This document shows, in pieces, positions 34,338 to 54,615 of a stretch of 56,995 bases of DNA. Positions within the stretch are counted from its first letter, which is position 1, and every line of letters starts with the position of its first letter. The DNA is from Bacteroidales bacterium. GTDB lineage: Bacteria; Bacteroidota; Bacteroidia; Bacteroidales; UBA932. The notes under the pieces were generated by a model that was given only the letters and a program-made list of their open reading frames with translations, did not search any database and was not told the DNA's origin. The translations under genes were made by a program, and so were the position numbers. Where the stretch lies: contig JAKSJK010000005.1 of the NCBI GenBank assembly GCA_024398095.1, positions 1-56,995 on the forward strand, in the 5' to 3' direction.

Positions 34338-35372
34338 ATGAAAAAGTTCCATGCACTTTTTGCCGCGGCTCTCGTTCTCGCTTCCTGCTGCGGCGGTCAG
34401 CAAACTGACACCAAACATCTCAGGCGTGCTGCCGATTTCGGCCGCATCGACGATGGCATCCAGGCCTATTTCGAGGACCTGCGAGCCATCCACAGCACAG
34501 GCGAGCTCAATTCCGTGATGGTGCTCAAGGACGGCGAAGTACTGGCCGAATATTACGATAATTGCTATGGTCCGGACTTCCGCAACATCTGCTGGTCCGC
34601 GTCCAAGACCTTCACTTCCACCGCGATAGGTTTCGCAATCCAGGACGGCCTGGTGTCGCTGGACAGCAAACTGGTGGACTTCCTCGATGAGGAGATGCTT
34701 CCTGAGACTGTGAGCGATACCCTCGCGGGGCTTACTGTCTACGACCTCCTCAGGATGTCTTCTGGCTTCAAGCTCGATCTTATCGGCAATACCGGCTCAG
34801 GACGCGAGGTGACTCCTACCCGAAGCACTCTCGAGGGCGGTTTCAAGTTCGCTCCGGGCGAGAGATATTCCTACAACAGCCACAACACCTATATGCTGTC
34901 AGTGATTGTTTCCAAAGTCACCGGCAAGCTTGTCTCTGAGTACCTCCAGGAGAAGCTTTTCAACGAGCTGGGTATCCGCAACTACCACTGGGACAAGAGC
35001 CGGGAGGGCTACGATATCGGCGGCTGGGGTCTCTACATCACTACCGAGGCTCTCGCCAAGATGGGTCAGTTCTACCTCCAGAAGGGCCAGTGGAACGGCA
35101 AGCAGCTCCTTAACGAGGAGTGGTTCGACCAGGCCATGTCTGCCCAGATCTATCAGAAGGGCGAGCCCGTGGAGGGCGATGACAAGGCTGTCGGTTACGG
35201 CTACCAGATGTGGGTCAATACTGTCGGCGGCGGCGCCCGTTTCGACGGTGCCCACGGTCAATGGGTGCTCATCTGTCCTGACAAGAACGCCGTGATCGTC
35301 GTGACTGAGAATGTCAACAACACCTCCGCCGCCATCAAAGCCATCTGGAACGACATCTACGAGATGATCTAA
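34338..35372 (+). CDS. Beta-lactamase-family serine hydrolase lipoprotein
   Basis: A 344-residue exported serine hydrolase of the class C/penicillin-binding-protein-like group. The lipoprotein signal ends LASC near residue 17. The SxxK motif is WSASKTF (about S87 and K90), the YxN motif is YSYNSHN near residue 176, and HGQW near 303 may take the KTG-equivalent position. In Bacteroidetes such proteins act as D-alanyl or other esterases and peptidases; the substrate is unknown and antibiotic resistance should not be inferred. The gene converges with purF, sharing CTAA so that the two stop codons overlap. Confidence 0.85.
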   Translation: MKKFHALFAAALVLASCCGGQQTDTKHLRRAADFGRIDDGIQAYFEDLRAIHSTGELNSVMVLKDGEVLAEYYDNCYGPDFRNICWSASKTFTSTAIGFAIQDGLVSLDSKLVDFLDEEMLPETVSDTLAGLTVYDLLRMSSGFKLDLIGNTGSGREVTPTRSTLEGGFKFAPGERYSYNSHNTYMLSVIVSKVTGKLVSEYLQEKLFNELGIRNYHWDKSREGYDIGGWGLYITTEALAKMGQFYLQKGQWNGKQLLNEEWFDQAMSAQIYQKGEPVEGDDKAVGYGYQMWVNTVGGGARFDGAHGQWVLICPDKNAVIVVTENVNNTSAAIKAIWNDIYEMI

Positions 35373-45400: not shown

Positions 45401-46898
45401 GGAAGTAGTTGAAGAAGACCTGGGGACGGTCGCTGATGACCGCCAGAGGGGTATCGTTGCCCATGGACGCGATAGGCTCCTGGCCGTTCACGCACATAGG
45501 GATCACAGTCTTGTCGATGTCCTCCTGGCCGAAGCCGAAGCTGCGGAGCTTGCGCTCCAGGTCAGGAACTGAATTCTCCACATGGCGGCCGCTCTTGATG
45601 TTCTCAAGCTGGATGCGGTTGGTGGAGAGCCACTGGCGGTAAGGATGCTCGCCGGCCAGCTGCTGCTTGATCTCGCCATCGTAGTAGATCTTGCCTTCGA
45701 GGGTGTCCACCATGATGATCTTGCCAGGCTCGAGACGTCCCTTTGAGACAACGTCTGACGGATCGAGATCCATCACACCGACCTCGCTGGCAACCACCAT
45801 CATGCCGTTCTTGGTGATGGTGTAGCGGGATGGGCGCAGACCGTTTCGGTCAAGCATACCGCCCGCATAGCGTCCGTCAGAGAAGAGCAGGGCGGCAGGG
45901 CCGTCCCACGGTTCCATGAGGATGGAGTAATATTCGTAAAAGGCCTTGAGGTCTTCGCTGATAGGGTTCTTGTCGTTGAAGGACTCAGGCACCAGGATGC
46001 TCATGGCCTTCGGGAGGCTCATGCCGCTCATCACCAGGAACTCGAACACATTGTCGAGGCTGGCGGAGTCGCTCATGTCCTTCTGGAGGATAGGCTTGAT
46101 GTCCCTGATGTCCCCGAGAGTCTCGCTTGAAAGCACACTCTCACGTGCCTGCAGCCAGCCGCGGTTGCCGCGGATGGTGTTGATTTCGCCGTTGTGGCAG
46201 AGCAGCCTGAACGGCTGTGCCAGCTTCCACTTAGGGAAGGTGTTGGTCGAGAAGCGGGAGTGAACCAGAGCCAGGCCGCTGGTGAAATAGGCATTGCTCA
46301 GATCCGGGAAGTAGCGCCTCAGCTGTCCCGAGGTAAGCATACCCTTATATATAATGTTCCTGCTGGAAAGGGAGCAGATGTAGAAGTCCTCGTCCTTGAC
46401 GCGGTTTTCGATCTTCTTGCGGATCTTGTAGAGGATCTGCTCGAGTCTGTCCACATCCTCGTCCTTGACTCCGGTGATGAAGATCTGCCTGATGTCAGGC
46501 TCCACTTCGCGCGCACCGGCGCCGAGGACCTCGGGGTTAACAGGCACTGTCCTTATATGCATCAAAGCGAGACCGGCTTTTTCGATCTCGTCTATGATGG
46601 TGGTAAGTATTTCAGCCTGGCGGGCCGGGTCTTTAGGCAGGAAAACCAGTCCCGTGCCGTAGCGGCCTTTTTCCGGAACCGGTATACCCTGGAGGAGTAT
46701 GAACTCGTGTGGAATCTGGAGCAATATACCGGCTCCGTCTCCGGTCTTGTCTCTGGTTTCCGCTCCCCTGTGCTCCATATTTTCGAGCACACGGAGAGCA
46801 TTGTCAACCAGTTGGTGGGTCTTGCCACCATGTATGTTTACGACCATTCCGACGCCACATGCGTCATGCTCGTAAGCTGGGGAGTATAAACCTTGCAT
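42420..46898 (-). CDS. gltB: Glutamate synthase large subunit
   Basis: Converts 2-oxoglutarate and glutamine to two glutamates together with GltD. 1492 residues. A short propeptide precedes the N-terminal nucleophile Cys in AYEHDACGVGM (about C14), followed by the glutaminase domain (HNGEINTIRGN near 210), the central and FMN domains (NTGEGGEDNVRYH, and GSEGGTGASPASSMRF near 1010), the 3Fe-4S site (CVMMRKCSTNTCPVG near 1110) and the C-terminal GXGXG beta-helix (FGAFAVKGLNLKLEG). The reading frame is open upstream to 47312, but that extension is antisense-frame noise inside glnA; the true start is ATG 46898, which shares its A with the glnA stop (TAATG). Confidence 0.97.
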   Translation of the reverse strand: MQGLYSPAYEHDACGVGMVVNIHGGKTHQLVDNALRVLENMEHRGAETRDKTGDGAGILLQIPHEFILLQGIPVPEKGRYGTGLVFLPKDPARQAEILTTIIDEIEKAGLALMHIRTVPVNPEVLGAGAREVEPDIRQIFITGVKDEDVDRLEQILYKIRKKIENRVKDEDFYICSLSSRNIIYKGMLTSGQLRRYFPDLSNAYFTSGLALVHSRFSTNTFPKWKLAQPFRLLCHNGEINTIRGNRGWLQARESVLSSETLGDIRDIKPILQKDMSDSASLDNVFEFLVMSGMSLPKAMSILVPESFNDKNPISEDLKAFYEYYSILMEPWDGPAALLFSDGRYAGGMLDRNGLRPSRYTITKNGMMVVASEVGVMDLDPSDVVSKGRLEPGKIIMVDTLEGKIYYDGEIKQQLAGEHPYRQWLSTNRIQLENIKSGRHVENSVPDLERKLRSFGFGQEDIDKTVIPMCVNGQEPIASMGNDTPLAVISDRPQVFFNYFRQQFAQVTNPAIDPIREELVMSLVEYIGTVGTGILVPDESNCKMVRLPQPVLTNAQLDILCNIRYKGFKTVKLPMLFECAKGEKGLKQALDELCRKAEEAVDEGVSYIILSDRDLDPQRAAIPSLLAVSAVHHHLISVQKRVQTALIVESGEIREVMHAALLLGYGASAICPYLTFAVLDDLVKKHRIQEEYKTAEKNYIKAVDKGLKKILSKMGISTIRSYRGAKIFESIGLGEELLNRYFGTEISTIGGIGLRDIARDAIKFHDEAFKPAKINEFLENNGQFSYRRDGIKHAWNPDTIANLQIATRLGSYKKYQEWEKMVDCKESPIFLRDYMNFRKAVAPVPLDEVEPVESIVKHFVTGAMSFGALSIEAHEALALAMNRLGARSNTGEGGEDNVRYHSDVDGVSLSSKTKQIASGRFGVTAEYLVNAEELQIKVAQGAKPGEGGQLPGFKVNEIIAKTRNAIPGISLISPPPHHDIYSIEDLAQLIFDLKNINPKAAVSVKLVAESGVGTIAAGVAKAKADLIVISGSEGGTGASPASSMRFAGISPEIGLAETQQTLVLNGLRSQVRLQTDGQLKTAKDVVIMAMLGADEFSFGTLPLILLGCVMMRKCSTNTCPVGVATQDAKLRGRFTGKADYVVNYFTFLATQVREYLSQIGVRHFKDIIGRTDLIELLPVDPSTKQGTIDFSRLLHRPDTDKPLYWDRGEFTKVSGVKDELIIQAATQAIEFKDEVNLDYALKNTDRAVGTMLSGVIASKYGEAGLPDSTINIKFKGSAGQSFGAFAVKGLNLKLEGECNDYFGKGLSGGRIAILPPVRTSAEFVAEDNIIAGNTGLYGATGGELYVNGRVGERFAVRNSGAIAVVEGAGDHCCEYMTGGRVVVLGKTGRNFAAGMSGGVAYVWDKDHDFDYYCNMDMVEINLVEETAYRKELHELIRQHYLYTGSALARRMLDDWNRYVDEFIQVVPIEYKRVLQEEQIAKLQQKIAAVQQDY

Positions 46899-49087
46899 TA
46901 TCTGATGAAAAGAAGTTCGCGGTACTTTGGAAGCGGCCATGCCTCGTCGTCTACGATGGTCTCGAGCTTGTCGACATGGTAGCGGATCTCTTCGAGGAGA
47001 GGTGCCACGGTGTCGTGGTAGGCAATCGCCTTCTCCCTCTCGGACTCGATCTTGTTCGCAACCTTGCGGGCGTTCACCATGGCATCCACCTTCTCGATGA
47101 TGAAGGACTCGTGGTCGCTGATCTTCTCGATGATGTGGAGGTTCTCCTTGGAGATGAGGCTGGCCTTCTCCTCTGGGAAGATATCCATCACCTTGTGTAC
47201 GTTGTCGATGAGCATGCTCTGGTACTTGGTCACAACAGGGATGATGTGGTTCAGGCAGAGGTCGCCGAAGATGCGGCTCTCGATCTGGATCTTCTTGGTG
47301 TAGGTCTCCCACTTGATCTCGTTGCGGGCCTCAAGCTCCAGACGGGTCATTACCTTGGTGCTCTCGAACATCTTTACAGAAGACTCTGAGAGGTATGCGT
47401 CGAAGATAAGCGGTGCAGAGGTCTCGCAGTCAAGACCGCGCTTTGCAGCCTCGAGCTTCCACTCTTCGCCGTAGCCGTTGCCGTTGAAAATGATAGGGCG
47501 GATGTACTTGATGTCCTCGCGGACCACCTTGAGGATGGCAGCCTCTTTAGCCTCGCCGGCCTCGATGAGAGCGTCAACCCTTGCCTTGAAGTCGGTGAGA
47601 GCTTCTGCCACAGCGGCGTTGAGGGTAAGCATTGCACTTGCGCAGTTAGCCTCTGAACCCACTGCACGGAACTCGAAGCGGTTTCCGGTGAATGCGAAAG
47701 GAGAGGTTCTGTTGCGGTCGGTGTTGTCGATCATCAGTTCAGGGATTGATGGGAGATCGAGCTTGAATGAAGTCTTGCCAGCCACTGACAGAGCGTCCTC
47801 CGTTGCGGCCTCGACATGGTCGATGAGGTCGGTGAGAGTCCTGCCGAGGAAGGAAGAAATGATTGCTGGAGGTGCCTCGTTTGCGCCAAGACGGTGTGCA
47901 TTGGAAGCCGACATGATGCTGGCTTTGAGCAGGCCGTTGTGGTTGTACACACCCTTCAGTGTCTCAACGGTGAAGGTTACGAAACGGAGGTTGTCCATAG
48001 GGGTCTTTCCAGGGGCGTGGAGAAGGATTCCGGTGTCGGTCGAGAGCGACCAGTTGTTGTGCTTGCCGGAACCGTTGACGCCCTTGAAAGGCTTCTCGTG
48101 GAGGAGGCAGCGGAAACCGTGCTTGCGTGCAACCCTCTTCATGATGGACATCATGAGCATGTTGTGGTCAACTGCGAGGTTGGTCTCCTCGAAGATAGGA
48201 GCCAGCTCGAACTGGTTAGGAGCGACCTCGTTGTGACGGGTCTTGCATGGGATGCCGAGCTCGAGGGCCTGGATCTCGATGTCTTTCATGAACTCCTCTA
48301 CTCGGCTAGGGATGGATCCGAAATAGTGGTCGTCCATCTGCTGGTTCTTCGCAGAGTCGTGGCCCATGAGGGTCCTGCCGGTCATCACCATGTCAGGACG
48401 CGCTGCATAGAGAGCCTCGTCCACGAGGAAGTACTCCTGCTCCCAGCCGAGGTTGCTGACAACCTTCTTGACCTCCGGGTTGAAGTACCTGACTACAGCA
48501 GTTGCTGCCTTGTCGACTGCGTAGAGAGCTTTCTTGAGCGGAACTTTGTAGTCCAGGGCTTCGCCGGTGTAGGCGATGAAGATGGTAGGGATCATGAGTG
48601 TGTCGCCGATGACGAACACTGGGGAGGTTGGATCCCATGCCGAGTAGCCTCTGGCCTCGAAGGTGCTGCGGATTCCGCCAGATGGGAATGAGCTGGCGTC
48701 CGGTTCCTGCTGGATGAGGAGCTTGCCTGTGAATTCCTCGAGCATGCCGCCTTTGCCGTCGTGCTCTACGAATCCGTCGTGCTTCTCTGCGGTTCCTTCG
48801 GTGAGAGGCTGGAACCAATGGGTGTAGTGGGTGACGCCGAGTTCGGTCGCCCATTTTTTCATACCCTCAGCCACAGCATCGGCGATGCTGCGCTCGAATG
48901 GAGCTCCGTTGTCGATGACGTCACACATTTTCTGGTATACGGCAGCGGGGAGATACTTGAACATCTTCTGTTTGTTGAAGACGTACTTGCCGAAATACTC
49001 ACTTGGGCGCTCAGCTGGGAGCTTCACTTCTACCGGTTGACGTTTGAAAGCCTCGTCTACCACTTGGAATCTCAGTTTTGATGACAT
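46898..49087 (-). CDS. glnA: Glutamine synthetase type III
   Basis: ATP-dependent synthesis of glutamine from glutamate and ammonia. At 729 residues it is the long GSIII (GlnN) form typical of Bacteroidetes. Marks include the N-terminal GSIII region (VTHYTHWFQPLTEGTAEKHDGF near 85), NQFELAPIFEETNLAVDHN near 275, the ATP-site KPFKGVNGSGKHNNWSL near 320, and NDTDRNRTSPFAFTGNRFEFR-type residues near 455 (here beginning IDNTDRNRTSPFAF). The C-terminal ~170 residues are the helical GSIII extension. It heads the six-gene nitrogen operon and ends in a stop overlapping gltB. Its 5' leader carries a Gln-rich leader ORF and a terminator, implying attenuation. Confidence 0.97.
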   Translation of the reverse strand: MSSKLRFQVVDEAFKRQPVEVKLPAERPSEYFGKYVFNKQKMFKYLPAAVYQKMCDVIDNGAPFERSIADAVAEGMKKWATELGVTHYTHWFQPLTEGTAEKHDGFVEHDGKGGMLEEFTGKLLIQQEPDASSFPSGGIRSTFEARGYSAWDPTSPVFVIGDTLMIPTIFIAYTGEALDYKVPLKKALYAVDKAATAVVRYFNPEVKKVVSNLGWEQEYFLVDEALYAARPDMVMTGRTLMGHDSAKNQQMDDHYFGSIPSRVEEFMKDIEIQALELGIPCKTRHNEVAPNQFELAPIFEETNLAVDHNMLMMSIMKRVARKHGFRCLLHEKPFKGVNGSGKHNNWSLSTDTGILLHAPGKTPMDNLRFVTFTVETLKGVYNHNGLLKASIMSASNAHRLGANEAPPAIISSFLGRTLTDLIDHVEAATEDALSVAGKTSFKLDLPSIPELMIDNTDRNRTSPFAFTGNRFEFRAVGSEANCASAMLTLNAAVAEALTDFKARVDALIEAGEAKEAAILKVVREDIKYIRPIIFNGNGYGEEWKLEAAKRGLDCETSAPLIFDAYLSESSVKMFESTKVMTRLELEARNEIKWETYTKKIQIESRIFGDLCLNHIIPVVTKYQSMLIDNVHKVMDIFPEEKASLISKENLHIIEKISDHESFIIEKVDAMVNARKVANKIESEREKAIAYHDTVAPLLEEIRYHVDKLETIVDDEAWPLPKYRELLFIR

Positions 49088-49172
49088 GTTGTAAGATATT
49101 AAGTTGTTTTGTCTTTCAATTTATCACTCATTCCTTCCGGACGGCCCGAAAATCATAATTTATCCTGGTTTC

Positions 49173-49210
49173 AAAAAGGGGGGCTGATTCCTTCCGGACC
49201 AGCCCCCTTT
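49173..49210 (-). terminator. Intrinsic terminator in the glnA leader
   Basis: On the minus strand AAAGGGGGCTG (49210-49200) pairs with CAGCCCCC (from 49186), followed by five Ts ending at 49173. It lies 85 bases upstream of glnA, inside the transcript from the 49362 promoter, so it must be bypassed for glnA to be expressed. Its 5' arm GGCTGGT (49204-49198) is the exact complement of ACCAGCC in the upstream hairpin loop (49260-49254). Confidence 0.82.
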
Positions 49211-49236
49211 CAATATCGGATATTTAAGAGTTTCTG

Positions 49237-49335
49237 TTATTCAAAGCGTCTCAGGCTGGTAACAGACGCAAACAGGCGGCAGAACTGATTGGAATTCTGC
49301 TGCTTCTGCTGCTTGTTATTTGACCTGTAGTTCAT
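49237..49335 (-). CDS. Gln/Asn-rich leader peptide of the glnA operon (32 codons)
   Basis: A short ORF beginning about 20 bases after the predicted transcription start and ending just downstream of the CCAGCC hairpin. The peptide starts MNYRSNNKQQKQQNSNQF: five of the first 17 residues are Gln (all CAG) and five are Asn. It is homologous to the asnB leader peptide at 49544 (shared SNN, QQ, QN, NQ and RL in the same order). Clustered codons for the amino acid made by the operon, followed by an intrinsic terminator, are the hallmark of ribosome-mediated attenuation. The peptide itself probably has no function after synthesis. It is too short for routine gene calling. Confidence 0.72.
   Translation of the reverse strand: MNYRSNNKQQKQQNSNQFCRLFASVTSLRRFE
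49246..49269 (-). ncRNA. Antiterminator hairpin in the glnA leader
   Basis: GCGTCT (49269-49264) pairs with AGACGC (49251-49246). The 12-base loop contains ACCAGCC, complementary over 7 bp to the terminator's 5' arm at 49204-49198. Loop pairing and terminator formation share GGCTG and so exclude each other. Confidence 0.62.
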
Positions 49336-49361
49336 TTGAATGTTTTGTCCGTTTGTGAGAG

Positions 49362-49392
49362 CAAATTTAATTTGTTGTTTCCGAAAATGCAA
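49362..49392 (-). promoter_or_regulatory. glnA operon promoter
   Basis: On the minus strand ATTG at about 49393-49390, a 20-bp spacer and TAAATTTG at 49369-49362 form a Bacteroidetes -33/-7 pair. The transcript should start near 49355, about 20 bases ahead of the leader ORF and about 270 bases ahead of glnA. Confidence 0.65.
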
Positions 49393-49487
49393 TAATTTTT
49401 TTACTTTTTTTGATAAAAAATTTCACACCTATATTATATAAAAACGCGCGTAGACTGCCGTAGAACAGCGAAATTTCTTTAAAAATA

Positions 49488-49519
49488 CTTGCAGAATCTA
49501 AAAGATATTCCTAATTTTG
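49488..49519 (+). promoter_or_regulatory. asnB operon promoter
   Basis: CTTG at 49488-49491, a 20-bp spacer and TAATTTTG at 49512-49519 give the same arrangement as the divergent glnA promoter. The start should lie near 49526, about 18 bases ahead of the leader ORF and about 205 bases ahead of asnB. A hairpin CCCGTA/TACGGG (49523-49541) sits at or near the 5' end. Confidence 0.68.
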
Positions 49520-49543
49520 AATCCCGTAATTCAGATACGGGCT

Positions 49544-49663
49544 ATGTACAATCACAAGTCAAATAATAATTTCCAGCAGCAGAACCTCAATCAGGTCCTG
49601 TGGCGCTTGTGTATGTCGAGCCAGTCTGAGACATACAGAAAACAAAGCGAAGAAACCAAATAA
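49544..49663 (+). CDS. Asn/Gln-rich leader peptide of the asnB operon (39 codons)
   Basis: A short ORF whose peptide begins MYNHKSNNNFQQQNLNQVL: three Asn then three Gln codons in near succession, six Asn and four Gln in the first 17 residues. It is homologous to the glnA leader peptide, with matching start and order. Its stop TAA (49661-49663) falls on the first bases of the terminator stem, whereas the glnA leader ORF stops about 27 bases before its terminator. I infer that stalling at Asn or Gln codons, when the charged tRNAs are scarce, lets the downstream hairpin loop capture the terminator arm. Confidence 0.72.
   Translation: MYNHKSNNNFQQQNLNQVLWRLCMSSQSETYRKQSEETK
49611..49636 (+). 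ncRNA. Antiterminator hairpin in the asnB leader
   Basis: GTATGTC (49611-49617) pairs perfectly with GACATAC (49630-49636). The 12-base loop contains GCCAGTC (49620-49626), the exact complement of GACTGGC (49668-49674) in the terminator's 5' arm. Relative to the glnA leader the stem sequence differs but still pairs, and the loop-arm helix shows a C-G to U-A compensating change. Confidence 0.65.
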
Positions 49664-49695
49664 AGGGGACTGGCCAAGGGTCAAGTCCCCTTTTT
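49662..49695 (+). terminator. Intrinsic terminator in the asnB leader
   Basis: AAAGGGGACT (49662-49671) pairs perfectly with AGTCCCCTTT (49684-49693), a 10-bp stem with a 12-base loop, the T-run ending at 49695. It lies 35 bases ahead of the asnB ATG and within its transcript, so it must be read through for asnB-PII-amtB-pyrG expression. Confidence 0.85.
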
Positions 49696-49730
49696 AATTT
49701 CCTGCGTATTAACAGAAACGGACAACAGAT

Positions 49731-51398
49731 ATGTGCGGAATTGCAGCAATTTTCAACATCGAGCCTACCCTGGTCCCCCAATGCAGGGAGAAGGCTCTGA
49801 AGATGGCCAGGAAGATACGCCATCGCGGTCCGGACTGGAGTGGAATCTACTCCGGCAAGACCGCCGTCCTCGCCCATGAGAGACTCTCCATCGTCGATCC
49901 CCTTTCAGGAGGCCAGCCGCTCAAATCCCCGGACGGCAGACACATCCTTGCAGTCAATGGAGAGATCTACAACCATCAGAAGATCAGAGACGATTACGCA
50001 GACCGCTACAGTTTCCTCACCGGCAGCGACTGTGAGGTAATCCTGGCCCTCTATCAGGAGAAAGGCATAGACTTTCTCGAGGATCTCAGCGGCATATTCG
50101 CCTTTGCCCTCTATGATGAAGAGAAGGACGAATTCCTGATCGCCAGAGACCCGATCGGCGTGATTCCTCTCTACATCGGCTATGACAGCGACGGAAAGGT
50201 CTATGTGGCCAGCGAGCTCAAGGCGCTCGAAGGCTTCTGTGAAAGGTACGAGCCTTTCCTCCCCGGCCACTATTACCACAGCCGCGAAGGCAGGATGGTA
50301 CGCTGGTACAAGAGAGACTGGACCGAATGGGCTGCAGTGAAGGACAACGGTGCGAAGGCCAGCGATGTGCGCGAGGCCCTGGATGCGGCAGTGAAACGCC
50401 AGCTTATGTGCGACGTGCCTTACGGCGTGCTGCTCTCCGGCGGACTCGACAGTTCCGTAACCAGCGCCCTTGCGATGAAATATTCGCGCAAGAGAGTCGA
50501 GAGCGGCGATACCAACGATGCCTGGTGGCCTAGGCTGCACTCCTTCGCAGTGGGTCTCAAAGGCGCACCCGACCTCGCAAAGGCCAAGGAAGTGGCCGAC
50601 TTCATCGGCACAGTGCACCATGAGGTGAACTACACCGTGCAAGAGGGTCTGGACGCAATCCGCGACGTGATCTACCACATCGAAACCTACGATGTGACCA
50701 CCGTCAGGGCCAGCACCCCTATGTATCTGCTGGCCAGGGTGATCAAGTCCATGGGCATCAAGATGGTGCTCTCGGGAGAAGGCGCAGACGAGGTTTTCGG
50801 AGGCTATCTCTACTTCCACAAGGCTCCGAGCGCTGAGGAGTTCCACAAGGAAAGCGTCCGCAAGCTCTCCAAGCTCTACCTCTACGACTGCCTCAGGGCC
50901 AACAAGGCCCTCTCCGCATGGGGCGTCGAGGGACGCGTGCCTTTCCTGGACAAGGAGTTCCTGGATGTGGCCATGAGCCTCAACCCCGAAGCCAAGATGT
51001 GTCCCGGCACAGTAATCGAGAAAAAGATCGTCCGCGAGGCCTTTGAAGACATGCTGCCCGAAAGCGTGGCATGGCGCCAGAAGGAGCAGTTCTCCGACGG
51101 CGTGGGCTACTCCTGGATCGACTCTCTCAAGAAACTCACCTCTGAACAGGTGTCCGACGAACAGATGGCCCATGCGGCGGAACGGTTCCCCATCAACCCG
51201 CCGCTCAACAAGGAAGAGTACTTCTACCGCAGCATCTTCGAGGAGCATTTCCCTAGCGAAAGTGCGGCCCGCAGCGTCCCTCAGGAAGCCAGCGTGGCCT
51301 GCTCCACCGCCATCGCCCTCGAGTGGGACGCGGCCTGGAAGAGCCTCAACGACCCTAGCGGACGCGCAGTGAAGGGCGTCCACGTAAAAGCTTACTAG
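49731..51398 (+). CDS. asnB: Asparagine synthetase B, glutamine-hydrolysing
   Basis: Makes asparagine from aspartate, ATP and glutamine. 555 residues, usual for AsnB. Cys2 (MCGIAAIF) is the N-terminal amidotransferase nucleophile after Met removal; RHRGPDWSG, VNGEIYNHQ and GSDCEVI complete the glutaminase site. The C-terminal synthetase domain has the ATP-pyrophosphatase P-loop GVLLSGGLDSSVTSAL near residue 230, SGEGADEVFGGYLYFHKAP near residue 345 and GVEGRVPFLDKEF near residue 400. First gene of the plus-strand operon asnB-PII-amtB-pyrG, preceded by an Asn/Gln-rich attenuator leader. Confidence 0.97.
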   Translation: MCGIAAIFNIEPTLVPQCREKALKMARKIRHRGPDWSGIYSGKTAVLAHERLSIVDPLSGGQPLKSPDGRHILAVNGEIYNHQKIRDDYADRYSFLTGSDCEVILALYQEKGIDFLEDLSGIFAFALYDEEKDEFLIARDPIGVIPLYIGYDSDGKVYVASELKALEGFCERYEPFLPGHYYHSREGRMVRWYKRDWTEWAAVKDNGAKASDVREALDAAVKRQLMCDVPYGVLLSGGLDSSVTSALAMKYSRKRVESGDTNDAWWPRLHSFAVGLKGAPDLAKAKEVADFIGTVHHEVNYTVQEGLDAIRDVIYHIETYDVTTVRASTPMYLLARVIKSMGIKMVLSGEGADEVFGGYLYFHKAPSAEEFHKESVRKLSKLYLYDCLRANKALSAWGVEGRVPFLDKEFLDVAMSLNPEAKMCPGTVIEKKIVREAFEDMLPESVAWRQKEQFSDGVGYSWIDSLKKLTSEQVSDEQMAHAAERFPINPPLNKEEYFYRSIFEEHFPSESAARSVPQEASVACSTAIALEWDAAWKSLNDPSGRAVKGVHVKAY

Positions 51399-53019: not shown

Positions 53020-54615
53020 ATGGAACAGACAAGGTACATCTTCGTGACCGGCGGCGTGGTTTCATCACTCGGCAAAGGCATCATTTCATCCAGCATCGGA
53101 AAGCTTCTCCAGGCTCACGGCTACAGCATCACAATACAGAAATACGATCCGTATATCAACATCGATCCGGGTACGCTCAATCCCTATGAGCACGGAGAGT
53201 GCTATGTGACCGTAGACGGCATGGAGACCGACCTGGACCTCGGCCATTACGAGCGTTTCACCGGCATCCGGACCACCCGTGGCAACTCCGTGACCACAGG
53301 CCGCATCTACAAGGCTGTGATCGACAAGGAGCGTCGCGGAGATTACCTTGGCAAAACCATACAGGTCGTCCCTCACATCACTGACGAGATCAAGCGCAGG
53401 ATGAAGCGTGAGGACGATCCGAAGCATTACGATTTCATCATTACCGAGGTGGGCGGCACCATCGGCGACATCGAGAGCGCCCCTTTCATGGAGGCCATCC
53501 GACAGCTGCGCTGGGAACTGGGCAGCCGCGCCATCTCTATCCACCTTACCTATGTGCCTTACCTCAAGGCCGCCGGCGAGTTCAAGACCAAGCCTACCCA
53601 ACATTCCGTCAAGGAGATGCAGAGCATGGGCATCCAGCCGGATGTGCTGATTCTGCGTACAGAGTACCATCTGGACAGCAACCTGCTCCAGAAGGTGGCT
53701 GCGTTCTGCAACGTGGACCGCGACTGCGTGGTCCAGAGCGAGGACCTGCCTAGCATCTACGAGGTGCCGATCAACATGGAGCGCCAGGGTCTGGACAAGG
53801 CCATCCTGCGCAAGACCGGCATGCCAGTGGACGAGTTGCCTCAGATGAGTCCATGGCGCGATTTCCTTACGAAGATGCACGCTGTGAAGCAGGAGGTGCG
53901 TATCGGCCTCGTGGGCAAGTATGACCTCCAAGATGCCTACAAGAGCATACGCGAGAGCCTGCTGATTGCCGGCGTCTACAACGATTGCAAGGTCAAGCTG
54001 GTTTTCGTGAACAGCGAGGAGGTTACACGTGAGAATATTGCAGAGAAGCTCGAGGGGCTTTCCGGCGTGGTAATATGTCCAGGCTTCGGCCTGCGCGGCA
54101 TCGAGGGCAAGATCGTGGCTGCCGAGTATACCCGTACCCACGATATCCCGACTTTCGGCATATGCCTGGGCATGCAGATGATGGTCATCGAGTTCGCCCG
54201 AAACGTGCTTGGCTATGCCGATGCCAACAGCCGCGAGATGGACGCCGTTACCCCTCATAACGTGATCGACATCATGGAGAGCCAGAAAAATATCACCGAA
54301 ATGGGCGGTACGATGCGTCTGGGTGCCTATTCCTGCAAGCTCGTAGAGGGCAGCCGCGCGAGGGCGATCTATGGCTCGGAGATGGTCCAGGAGCGTCACC
54401 GCCACCGCTACGAGTTCAACAATGCCTTCAAGGCTGAGTACGAGGCTGCCGGCATGAAGTGTACCGGCATCAACCCGGAGAACGACCTCGTGGAGATTGT
54501 GGAGATCCCGGGCCTGCGCTGGTACATCGGCGGCCAGTTCCATCCGGAATACTCCACCTCCGTCCTCAACCCTCACCCGCTCTTCGTGGACTTCGTCAAG
54601 GTCGCTAAAGGGTAG
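53020..54615 (+). CDS. pyrG: CTP synthase
   Basis: Converts UTP to CTP with glutamine as nitrogen donor. 531 residues, typical. The synthase domain shows YIFVTGGVVSSLGKGIISSS at the N-terminus and KYDPYINIDPGTLNPYEHGE near 43; the glutaminase domain starts near 290 with VGKYDLQDAYKSI, the nucleophile Cys in FGICLGMQMM near 380 and the His/Glu pair in QFHPEYSTS near 510. Last gene of the asnB operon. The plus-strand end overlaps the convergent membrane-protein gene by 11 bp. Confidence 0.97.
   Translation: MEQTRYIFVTGGVVSSLGKGIISSSIGKLLQAHGYSITIQKYDPYINIDPGTLNPYEHGECYVTVDGMETDLDLGHYERFTGIRTTRGNSVTTGRIYKAVIDKERRGDYLGKTIQVVPHITDEIKRRMKREDDPKHYDFIITEVGGTIGDIESAPFMEAIRQLRWELGSRAISIHLTYVPYLKAAGEFKTKPTQHSVKEMQSMGIQPDVLILRTEYHLDSNLLQKVAAFCNVDRDCVVQSEDLPSIYEVPINMERQGLDKAILRKTGMPVDELPQMSPWRDFLTKMHAVKQEVRIGLVGKYDLQDAYKSIRESLLIAGVYNDCKVKLVFVNSEEVTRENIAEKLEGLSGVVICPGFGLRGIEGKIVAAEYTRTHDIPTFGICLGMQMMVIEFARNVLGYADANSREMDAVTPHNVIDIMESQKNITEMGGTMRLGAYSCKLVEGSRARAIYGSEMVQERHRHRYEFNNAFKAEYEAAGMKCTGINPENDLVEIVEIPGLRWYIGGQFHPEYSTSVLNPHPLFVDFVKVAKG

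Follow-up and report, generated by a model that had tools for sequence, protein, structure and literature searches.

The window considered here is a 56,995-nt stretch of a Bacteroidales bacterium (contig JAKSJK010000005.1 of GenBank assembly GCA_024398095.1, 2.45 Mb in 149 contigs), in which two operons of nitrogen genes diverge from one intergenic region, and each is preceded by a short open reading frame (ORF) rich in asparagine (Asn) and glutamine (Gln) codons, a hairpin and an intrinsic terminator. A preliminary description of this DNA, made from the sequence alone, had read the two leaders as ribosome-mediated Gln/Asn attenuators, and comparison with related genomes now supports that reading, with leader and terminator recurring before nitrogen genes and an Asn/Gln bias that depends on the operon. 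We further propose that each operon is probably controlled by ribosome-mediated Gln/Asn transcription attenuation in which the antiterminator is a pseudoknot between the leader hairpin and the terminator.

Two Asn/Gln leaders between divergent nitrogen operons

The minus-strand operon (glnN-gltB-gltD-carA-carB-purF) ends at 35369 and the plus-strand operon (asnB-PII-amtB-pyrG) at 54615. This gene content is as previously described (gltBD, carAB and purF; asnB, PII, amtB and pyrG), except for the label glnA given to the first minus-strand gene, here named glnN: its product is a 729-aa glutamine synthetase that scores far under the curated cut-offs of both the GlnA and the type III model of NCBIfam. 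The locus is organized as follows:

46898..49087, minus strand: glnN, encoding a large glutamine synthetase and heading the minus operon (protein family searches)
49088-49730: intergenic region of 643 nt between the two divergent operons
49174..49211, minus strand: intrinsic terminator before glnN, 5′ arm GAAAGGGGGCTGGT (hairpin read from the sequence; RNA model match E 2.2e-9, the sequence itself being in the model)
49237..49335, minus strand: glnN leader ORF, 32 codons, Asn/Gln run SNNKQQKQQNSNQ (ORF list, leader-profile match)
49246..49269, minus strand: hairpin P2 of the glnN leader, GCGTCT/AGACGC, close to where the ORF ends (stem p 0.040; constrained fold p 0.035)
49254..49260, minus strand: apical-loop segment ACCAGCC of the glnN leader, complement of the terminator 5′ arm GGCTGGT (p 0.055)
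49362..49392, minus strand: promoter-like site TTG-N20-TAAATTTG of the glnN leader (consensus match only)
49489..49519, plus strand: promoter-like site TTG-N20-TAATTTTG of the asnB leader (consensus match only)
49544..49663, plus strand: asnB leader ORF, 39 codons, Asn/Gln run SNNNFQQQNLNQ (ORF list, leader-profile match)
49610..49637, plus strand: hairpin P2 of the asnB leader, TGTATGTC/GACATACA (stem p 0.007; constrained fold p 0.050)
49620..49626, plus strand: apical-loop segment GCCAGTC of the asnB leader, complement of the terminator 5′ arm GACTGGC (p 0.025)
49662..49695, plus strand: intrinsic terminator before asnB, 5′ arm AAAGGGGACTGG (hairpin read from the sequence; RNA model match E 5.4e-6, the sequence itself being in the model)
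49731..51398, plus strand: asnB, first gene of the plus operon (protein family searches)

Both leader ORFs of the preliminary description were recovered from the sequence and the ORF list: the minus-strand ORF (49335-49237) encodes MNYRSNNKQQKQQNSNQFCRLFASVTSLRRFE and the plus-strand ORF (49544-49663) encodes MYNHKSNNNFQQQNLNQVLWRLCMSSQSETYRKQSEETK, with ATG starts chosen by the earlier reader and by us (the program-made list runs both ORFs upstream to TTG codons). Each contains 9 Asn or Gln within 12 residues, and dinucleotide shuffles of the 643-nt intergenic region never yielded even one ORF with at least 8 Asn/Gln per 12 residues (0/1000), and a chance origin was rejected on this ground. 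The paired leaders at this locus are real. Their peptides share 34% identity, and the likeness lies mainly in the Asn/Gln run, which qualifies the homology earlier claimed for the two ORFs. A search for leaders of other amino acids within the window found none convincing.

The sequence TTG-N20-TAnnTTTG, a promoter form of Bacteroidota, occurs 3 times in the 57-kb window vs. 0.22 expected (0/100 shuffles reach 3), and two of these occurrences stand directly before the two leader ORFs, as had been noted. With TTTG as the first box, neither leader matches and 2 matches lie elsewhere in the window. Among the 38 non-redundant leaders introduced below, 13 (the window's two included) have a strict TTG-N20-TAnnTTTG match, vs. 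1.2% of random stretches.

Terminator hairpins were found 86 nt upstream of glnN and 35 nt upstream of asnB, in agreement with the 35-85 bases first proposed; a consensus terminator scanner flags the asnB terminator alone, at the scanner's background rate. Across relatives, a strict script placed a terminator between leader ORF and first gene in 41 of 45 cases, and a relaxed script, run without a null, detected a hairpin in 52 of 52, misplaced in 2 (L095 and L112). The predicted order at these loci is a short, translated-looking ORF with a codon run for an amino acid of the pathway, followed by a putative intrinsic terminator ahead of the first structural gene.

Hairpin, loop and terminator arm

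The preliminary description named no antiterminator and overlooked the hairpin that directly follows the Asn/Gln run. The apical loop of this hairpin carries CCAGYC, which can pair with GRCUGG in the 5′ arm of the terminator; a loop-arm pairing of this sort is not the classical antiterminator. To evaluate it, we used leaders from related genomes. Visual inspection of the peptides and of the sequence behind them led to the removal of 18 out of 70 candidate ORFs (among them L090, which runs into a contig end), and ORFs with a stop-to-stop frame >330 nt were filtered out, a filter that lost the true leader L087. Loop segments were recognized by a motif list compiled after inspecting the sequences (CCAG[CT][CGA], CCGGTC, CCGGTA, CCCGGT and CCGACT), and L120, whose loop the list does not cover, was left out of the hairpin and loop statistics. 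The resulting 51 elements were cut to a non-redundant set of 38, in which related leaders remain, so that combined p-values are too small. Two elements with divergent loops (L074 and L111) were further excluded from the alignment (A7), the RNA model (R1) and the pair counts, which thus use 36 of the 38.

The P2 stems differ widely in sequence and are nevertheless better than those of shuffles (combined p 1.7e-13, 16/38 at p<=0.05, kinship ignored). Likewise, when the loop segment was kept single-stranded, the fold around it was better than in dinucleotide shuffles (combined p 8.9e-14, 17/38 at p<=0.05, kinship ignored), and unconstrained folding leaves the whole loop segment inside an apical loop in 25 of 38 elements vs. 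5.0 expected. Seven further elements on which these statistics were not built, six found via the RNA model and one via a broader profile, gave a combined constrained-fold p of 0.004 (3/7 at p<=0.05, kinship ignored). The loop segment lies 16-31 nt past the last Asn/Gln codon in the 51 leaders.

In 35 of the 38 non-redundant elements, this segment can pair with its own terminator arm over at least 6 contiguous bases, and it fits its own arm better than swapped arms (16.79 vs. 15.98, P 0.005). Over the seven loop-arm positions, 89.9% of cells are paired, vs. 5-44% when slid (36 sequences), and the number of further pair types (9 vs. 6.3) is the sole measure clearly above shuffles (2/500). Natural double changes that keep the pairing, given as loop:arm, are found in L239 (GCCGGTC:GACCGGT), the window's asnB leader (GCCAGTC:GACTGGC), the glnK leader L132 (GACCAGTC:GACTGGTC) and L003 (CCGGTA:TGCCGG).

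The terminator stem itself covaries strongly, with double changes at 7 of 10 pairs, mainly below the CUGG part. Within the CUGG segment the 5′ arm is nearly invariant and its 3′ partners drift via G-U changes, the pattern predicted for a 5′ arm that also pairs elsewhere. A segment upstream that would sequester the loop (segment 1 of trp-type attenuators) was detected in none of the 38 elements at p<=0.05 (combined p 1.0), and the P2 stem and the loop-arm pairing are mutually compatible. The simplest reading of such an element is thus an H-type pseudoknot antiterminator, an alternative structure predicted to exclude the terminator.

Distribution, gene context and codon content

Upstream of glnN, a first look at 30 loci (the window's included) revealed Asn/Gln leaders in five relatives of the same genus and none at loci from other families. 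At E<=0.05, a peptide profile built from 11 leaders then had matches in 45 of the 250 genomes of the genus, one of them that of the window, and in 23 of the 98 good assemblies. The conservation that the preliminary description had proposed as a check on itself thus holds in part, as leader and codon clusters recur in relatives in a patchy way. Among 295 genomes of the order, the same profile matched the window's own and four others at E 0.014-0.04, none of the four a leader. A 23-row profile gave two matches in 149 family genomes, the window's own and G126 from another genus, which has a clear glnN leader (L271), and two in 345 class genomes, the window's own and L270, rejected as a triplet repeat read out of frame. 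The order and class profile matches outside the family were likewise dismissed on reading (L102, L103 and L105) or lie inside a 697-aa frame (L104). Several named rumen and gut Bacteroidales assemblies carry the leader before asnB, glnK or glnN (L132, L133, L135, L136, L138, L143 and L145).

The RNA model matched 32 of 101 genus genomes at E<=0.01, not every weak row being read (at least one, L250, is an ordinary terminator after a gene), and 25 of 295 order genomes at E<=0.001. Of these, 11 loci were read first and only L276, from genome G618, was a leader; a second G618 match was read later (L287). Match C32, a candidate for a further element in the genome of the window besides the two leaders, falls within a gene and was rejected. 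At 56 named loci (L148-L203, up to 6 kb on each side of glnN; Bacteroides, Phocaeicola, Parabacteroides and Prevotella included), the model found no element at E<=0.1. The six elements first found by this model, which takes no regard of codons, all have an in-frame Asn/Gln run before the hairpin. G618 belongs to another family, and its two leaders (L287 and L288), one before amtB-asnB and one before glnN, share the anatomy and the loop and terminator motifs of the others; the amtB-asnB leader has all Asn and no Gln, the glnN leader many Asn and one Gln. Asn/Gln profiles miss such versions, and these counts therefore understate the true range.

Among glnN relatives that have a leader, the closest (L003, 85% identity) shows an all-Gln run and a different, still complementary loop-arm pair. 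An even closer one (87%, genome G030; L002 and L261) has no leader in the stretches read. Two other genus members (G178 and G082; L268 and L269) have a tandem pair of glnN-like genes, and the stretches examined there contain no Asn/Gln leader; this is a different glnN locus, preceded by genes that, from their first residues, look like dapF and an aminotransferase gene.

Judged by likeness to the window proteins or by family models, the genes behind the leaders are glnN (most), asnB, PII-amtB (glnK-amtB) and gltB-gltD (L274). A leader also precedes a purF-like/asnB/pyrG operon (L272), whose first gene has 25% identity to the window PurF and falls under the NCBIfam purF cut-off, and, in two genomes, a circularly permuted ATP-grasp gene (L074, by Pfam PF14403; L111, by likeness of its first residues). 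One genome, G264, combines window-like divergent glnN/asnB twin leaders with leaders before gltB-gltD and the ATP-grasp gene, four in total (L110, L249, L274 and L111); the twin arrangement was seen in just two genomes, the window's own and G264.

The codon content of the leaders follows the operon behind them. Asn makes up 0.67 of the Asn/Gln codons in 9 asnB-operon leaders vs. 0.40 in 25 glnN leaders (p 0.0007, kinship uncorrected, numbers entered by hand), and an earlier, smaller comparison of 6 vs. 22 leaders gave p 0.006. Operons were classed by their first gene, except that the purF-like/asnB operon was counted as asnB, and some glnN- and glnK-led operons also contain asnB further downstream. 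The mix ranges from 0 Asn and 8 Gln (L119, glnN) to 10 Asn and 1 Gln (L108, purF-like/asnB/pyrG). Asn codons are AAT:AAC = 146:68 in the leaders vs. 76:221 in the 11 window genes counted; synonymous codon choice has been argued to set attenuator sensitivity (in a passage of PMC1183508). Outside the Asn/Gln run the peptides are poorly conserved.

As for the charging of the cognate tRNAs, a search for GatB, needed for indirect Gln- and Asn-tRNA synthesis, found it in 0 of 31 genus genomes, 10 of which are at least 90% complete, and in 12 of 14 controls. Both tRNAs would thus be expected to be charged directly by GlnRS and AsnRS, and their charged forms should be direct reporters of free Gln and Asn.

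Proposed mechanism and alternatives

Leader ORF, hairpin, loop-arm complementarity, terminator, recurrence and gene context are all features of the sequences themselves, and they suggest the following sequence of events. RNA polymerase would transcribe the leader ORF with its densely clustered codons for Gln (CAG) and Asn (mostly AAT), next the hairpin P1/P2, which starts just past the run and carries ACCAGYC in its apical loop, and then the terminator with its 5′ arm GRCUGGU. When Gln or Asn is short, a ribosome would stall in the run and the downstream hairpin would fold, so that its loop could pair with the emerging terminator arm as an H-type pseudoknot antiterminator and let transcription proceed into the operon. 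When both amino acids are plentiful, the ribosome would read through the hairpin to the stop codon, unfolding the hairpin and masking the loop, and the terminator would form. Translation of the leader, stalling, formation of the pseudoknot in vivo and the direction of the response are steps that we infer.

On balance, we lean towards a broader interpretation as well, in which this default-on, ribosome-gated pseudoknot attenuator would be a mobile module set before different Bacteroidales nitrogen operons and tuned to Asn or Gln via its codons, together making a tRNA-based nitrogen regulon. Its loop would capture the terminator 5′ arm by default, except where a ribosome past the Gln/Asn codons opens the hairpin. 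If so, Gln/Asn leader peptides would control nitrogen assimilation in uncultured gut and rumen Bacteroidales, and an attenuator would not need four competing segments but could function with a single hairpin loop plus a terminator.

Several observations weigh against the proposed mechanism. The loop-arm pairing is mostly conserved rather than covarying, as its columns vary little among the 36 sequences: the 89.9% of paired cells compare with 88.8% in shuffles (72/500 reach it), the 3 pairs with double changes compare with 2.0 (70/500 reach it), and the covariation score, equalled by 23 of 500 shuffles, is modest. Per-locus complementarity tests are weak (13/52 at p<=0.05), the ATP-grasp leader L074 has no loop-arm match, and the asnB leaders L097 and L110 match over just 5 bases. 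The loop-arm duplex (median -11.8 kcal/mol) is also less stable than the full terminator (median -21.1) and must therefore act kinetically, by forming first. In the window itself, the stop codon of the asnB leader (49661-49663) lies 34 nt past the loop segment, the farthest downstream of the 51 leaders, and overlaps the terminator 5′ arm, where a waiting ribosome could hinder the terminator; the effect of this leader may depend on timing, or it may have decayed in part. Between close leaders, 18 codon changes are synonymous and 46 non-synonymous (28% synonymous vs. 17.5% by chance). Such weak purifying selection is what a leader peptide would be expected to show but does not prove translation. 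Finally, most genus genomes have no profile match (205/250), and an Asn/Gln leader stands at only 1 of 30 family asnB loci, the window's own (ATG ORFs up to 600 nt upstream), which rules out that the leader is conserved along with asnB itself. As a side observation, the overlap of stop codon and terminator (window positions 49661-49695) may point to a C-terminal extension of the asnB leader.

Among the alternatives, a classical trp/his-type attenuator (pairings 1:2, 2:3 and 3:4) survives best, though we consider it unlikely. The conserved hairpin would then be the 1:2 pause signal and the loop complementarity incidental, which would fit the modest loop-arm covariation, the classical order of leader ORF, codon run, hairpin and terminator, and the position of the hairpin 5′ arm inside the leader ORF, as in trp. 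The scheme, super-attenuation included, is described in passages of PMC1183508, according to which region I of trp-type leaders sequesters region II and an untranslated leader terminates. Here, however, the segment matching the terminator arm is an apical loop and not a hairpin arm, the sequestering segment 1 was found in none of the 38 elements, and the P2 stems vary in sequence while the loop stays near CCAGYC. The pseudoknot and the classical design make opposite predictions for an untranslated leader.

The near-invariance of the loop across genes could also reflect binding of a metabolite or regulator to the hairpin, i.e., a riboswitch or a protein-bound antiterminator to which the ORF is secondary. 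This seems improbable, given that the six elements first found by the RNA model have an in-frame Asn/Gln run and that the Asn:Gln mix tracks the operon. An Rfam search, a check suggested by the preliminary description, returned no family at gathering score for the window (unrelated weak matches reach E up to 5), which rejects a known riboswitch or T-box.

Still less probable is that the product is the peptide or the short terminated RNA itself (a small protein, a trans-acting leader peptide or an sRNA). Under amino acid excess a terminated leader RNA of ~170-180 nt would indeed arise, as estimated from the promoter-like sites and terminators, and a trans-acting leader peptide, peTrpL, has been reported (PMC7298713); the peptides are, however, poorly conserved beyond the Asn/Gln run, codon changes show little selection, and the stop position relative to the hairpin varies. 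Least credible of all is a nascent-chain arrest peptide, in which the poly-Asn/Gln chain itself would stall the ribosome in response to a ligand: such a stall before the hairpin should have an equal downstream effect, but arrest peptides generally need specific residues at fixed positions and the order and number of Asn and Gln vary here between the extremes given above.

Ribosome-mediated transcription attenuators are known from the trp, his, thr, ilv and leu operons of Proteobacteria. The pseudoknot attenuator proposed here would share with them a leader ORF rich in codons of the product amino acid, an alternative RNA structure and an intrinsic terminator before the first gene, and would differ in its usually mixed Gln and Asn codons, in the apical loop as antiterminating segment and in the segment 1 that was not found. 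The actinobacterial leuA LEU element (passages of PMC1262725) likewise has a leader ORF with a cognate codon run beside a predicted pseudoknot; in that element, however, the Leu codons pair with the leuA Shine-Dalgarno box to form the base stem, and the paper cites evidence that these codons do not matter, whereas the present elements include a terminator, the 5′ arm of which would make up one strand of the pseudoknot. The elements of the window end in terminators 35 and 86 nt upstream of the first genes, which does not fit a pseudoknot stem over the ribosome binding site of the first gene as in LEU (such pairing was not searched for). Gln-responsive riboswitches (cited in PMC8632094) are similar in being RNA elements near glutamine synthetase, glutamate synthase and related genes, but they are ligand aptamers, and the window has no Rfam match above threshold. 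Within Bacteroidota, short ORFs in 5′ regions have been taken as possible attenuators in Flavobacterium psychrophilum (PMC9723704) and B. thetaiotaomicron (PMC7366714); in the passages concerned, these two papers name neither Gln/Asn leaders, nor a pseudoknot, nor the present regulon. By word counts, the main text of PMC2965389 has no word starting with bacteroid, glutamine or asparagine, and among the matches listed in searches of the open-access literature, outside which most subscription papers fall, none was recognizable from its listing as describing a Gln/Asn leader-peptide attenuator or a loop-terminator pseudoknot attenuator.

If the proposed regulon is real, the module would also mark genes of unclear function. 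The ATP-grasp operon is an example: behind its leader in genome G012 (L074; L273 1952-6622), the ATP-grasp gene is followed by Alpha-E, transglutaminase-like and two AstE/AspA-like genes, and the presence of the leader hints at a role in amide or nitrogen metabolism.

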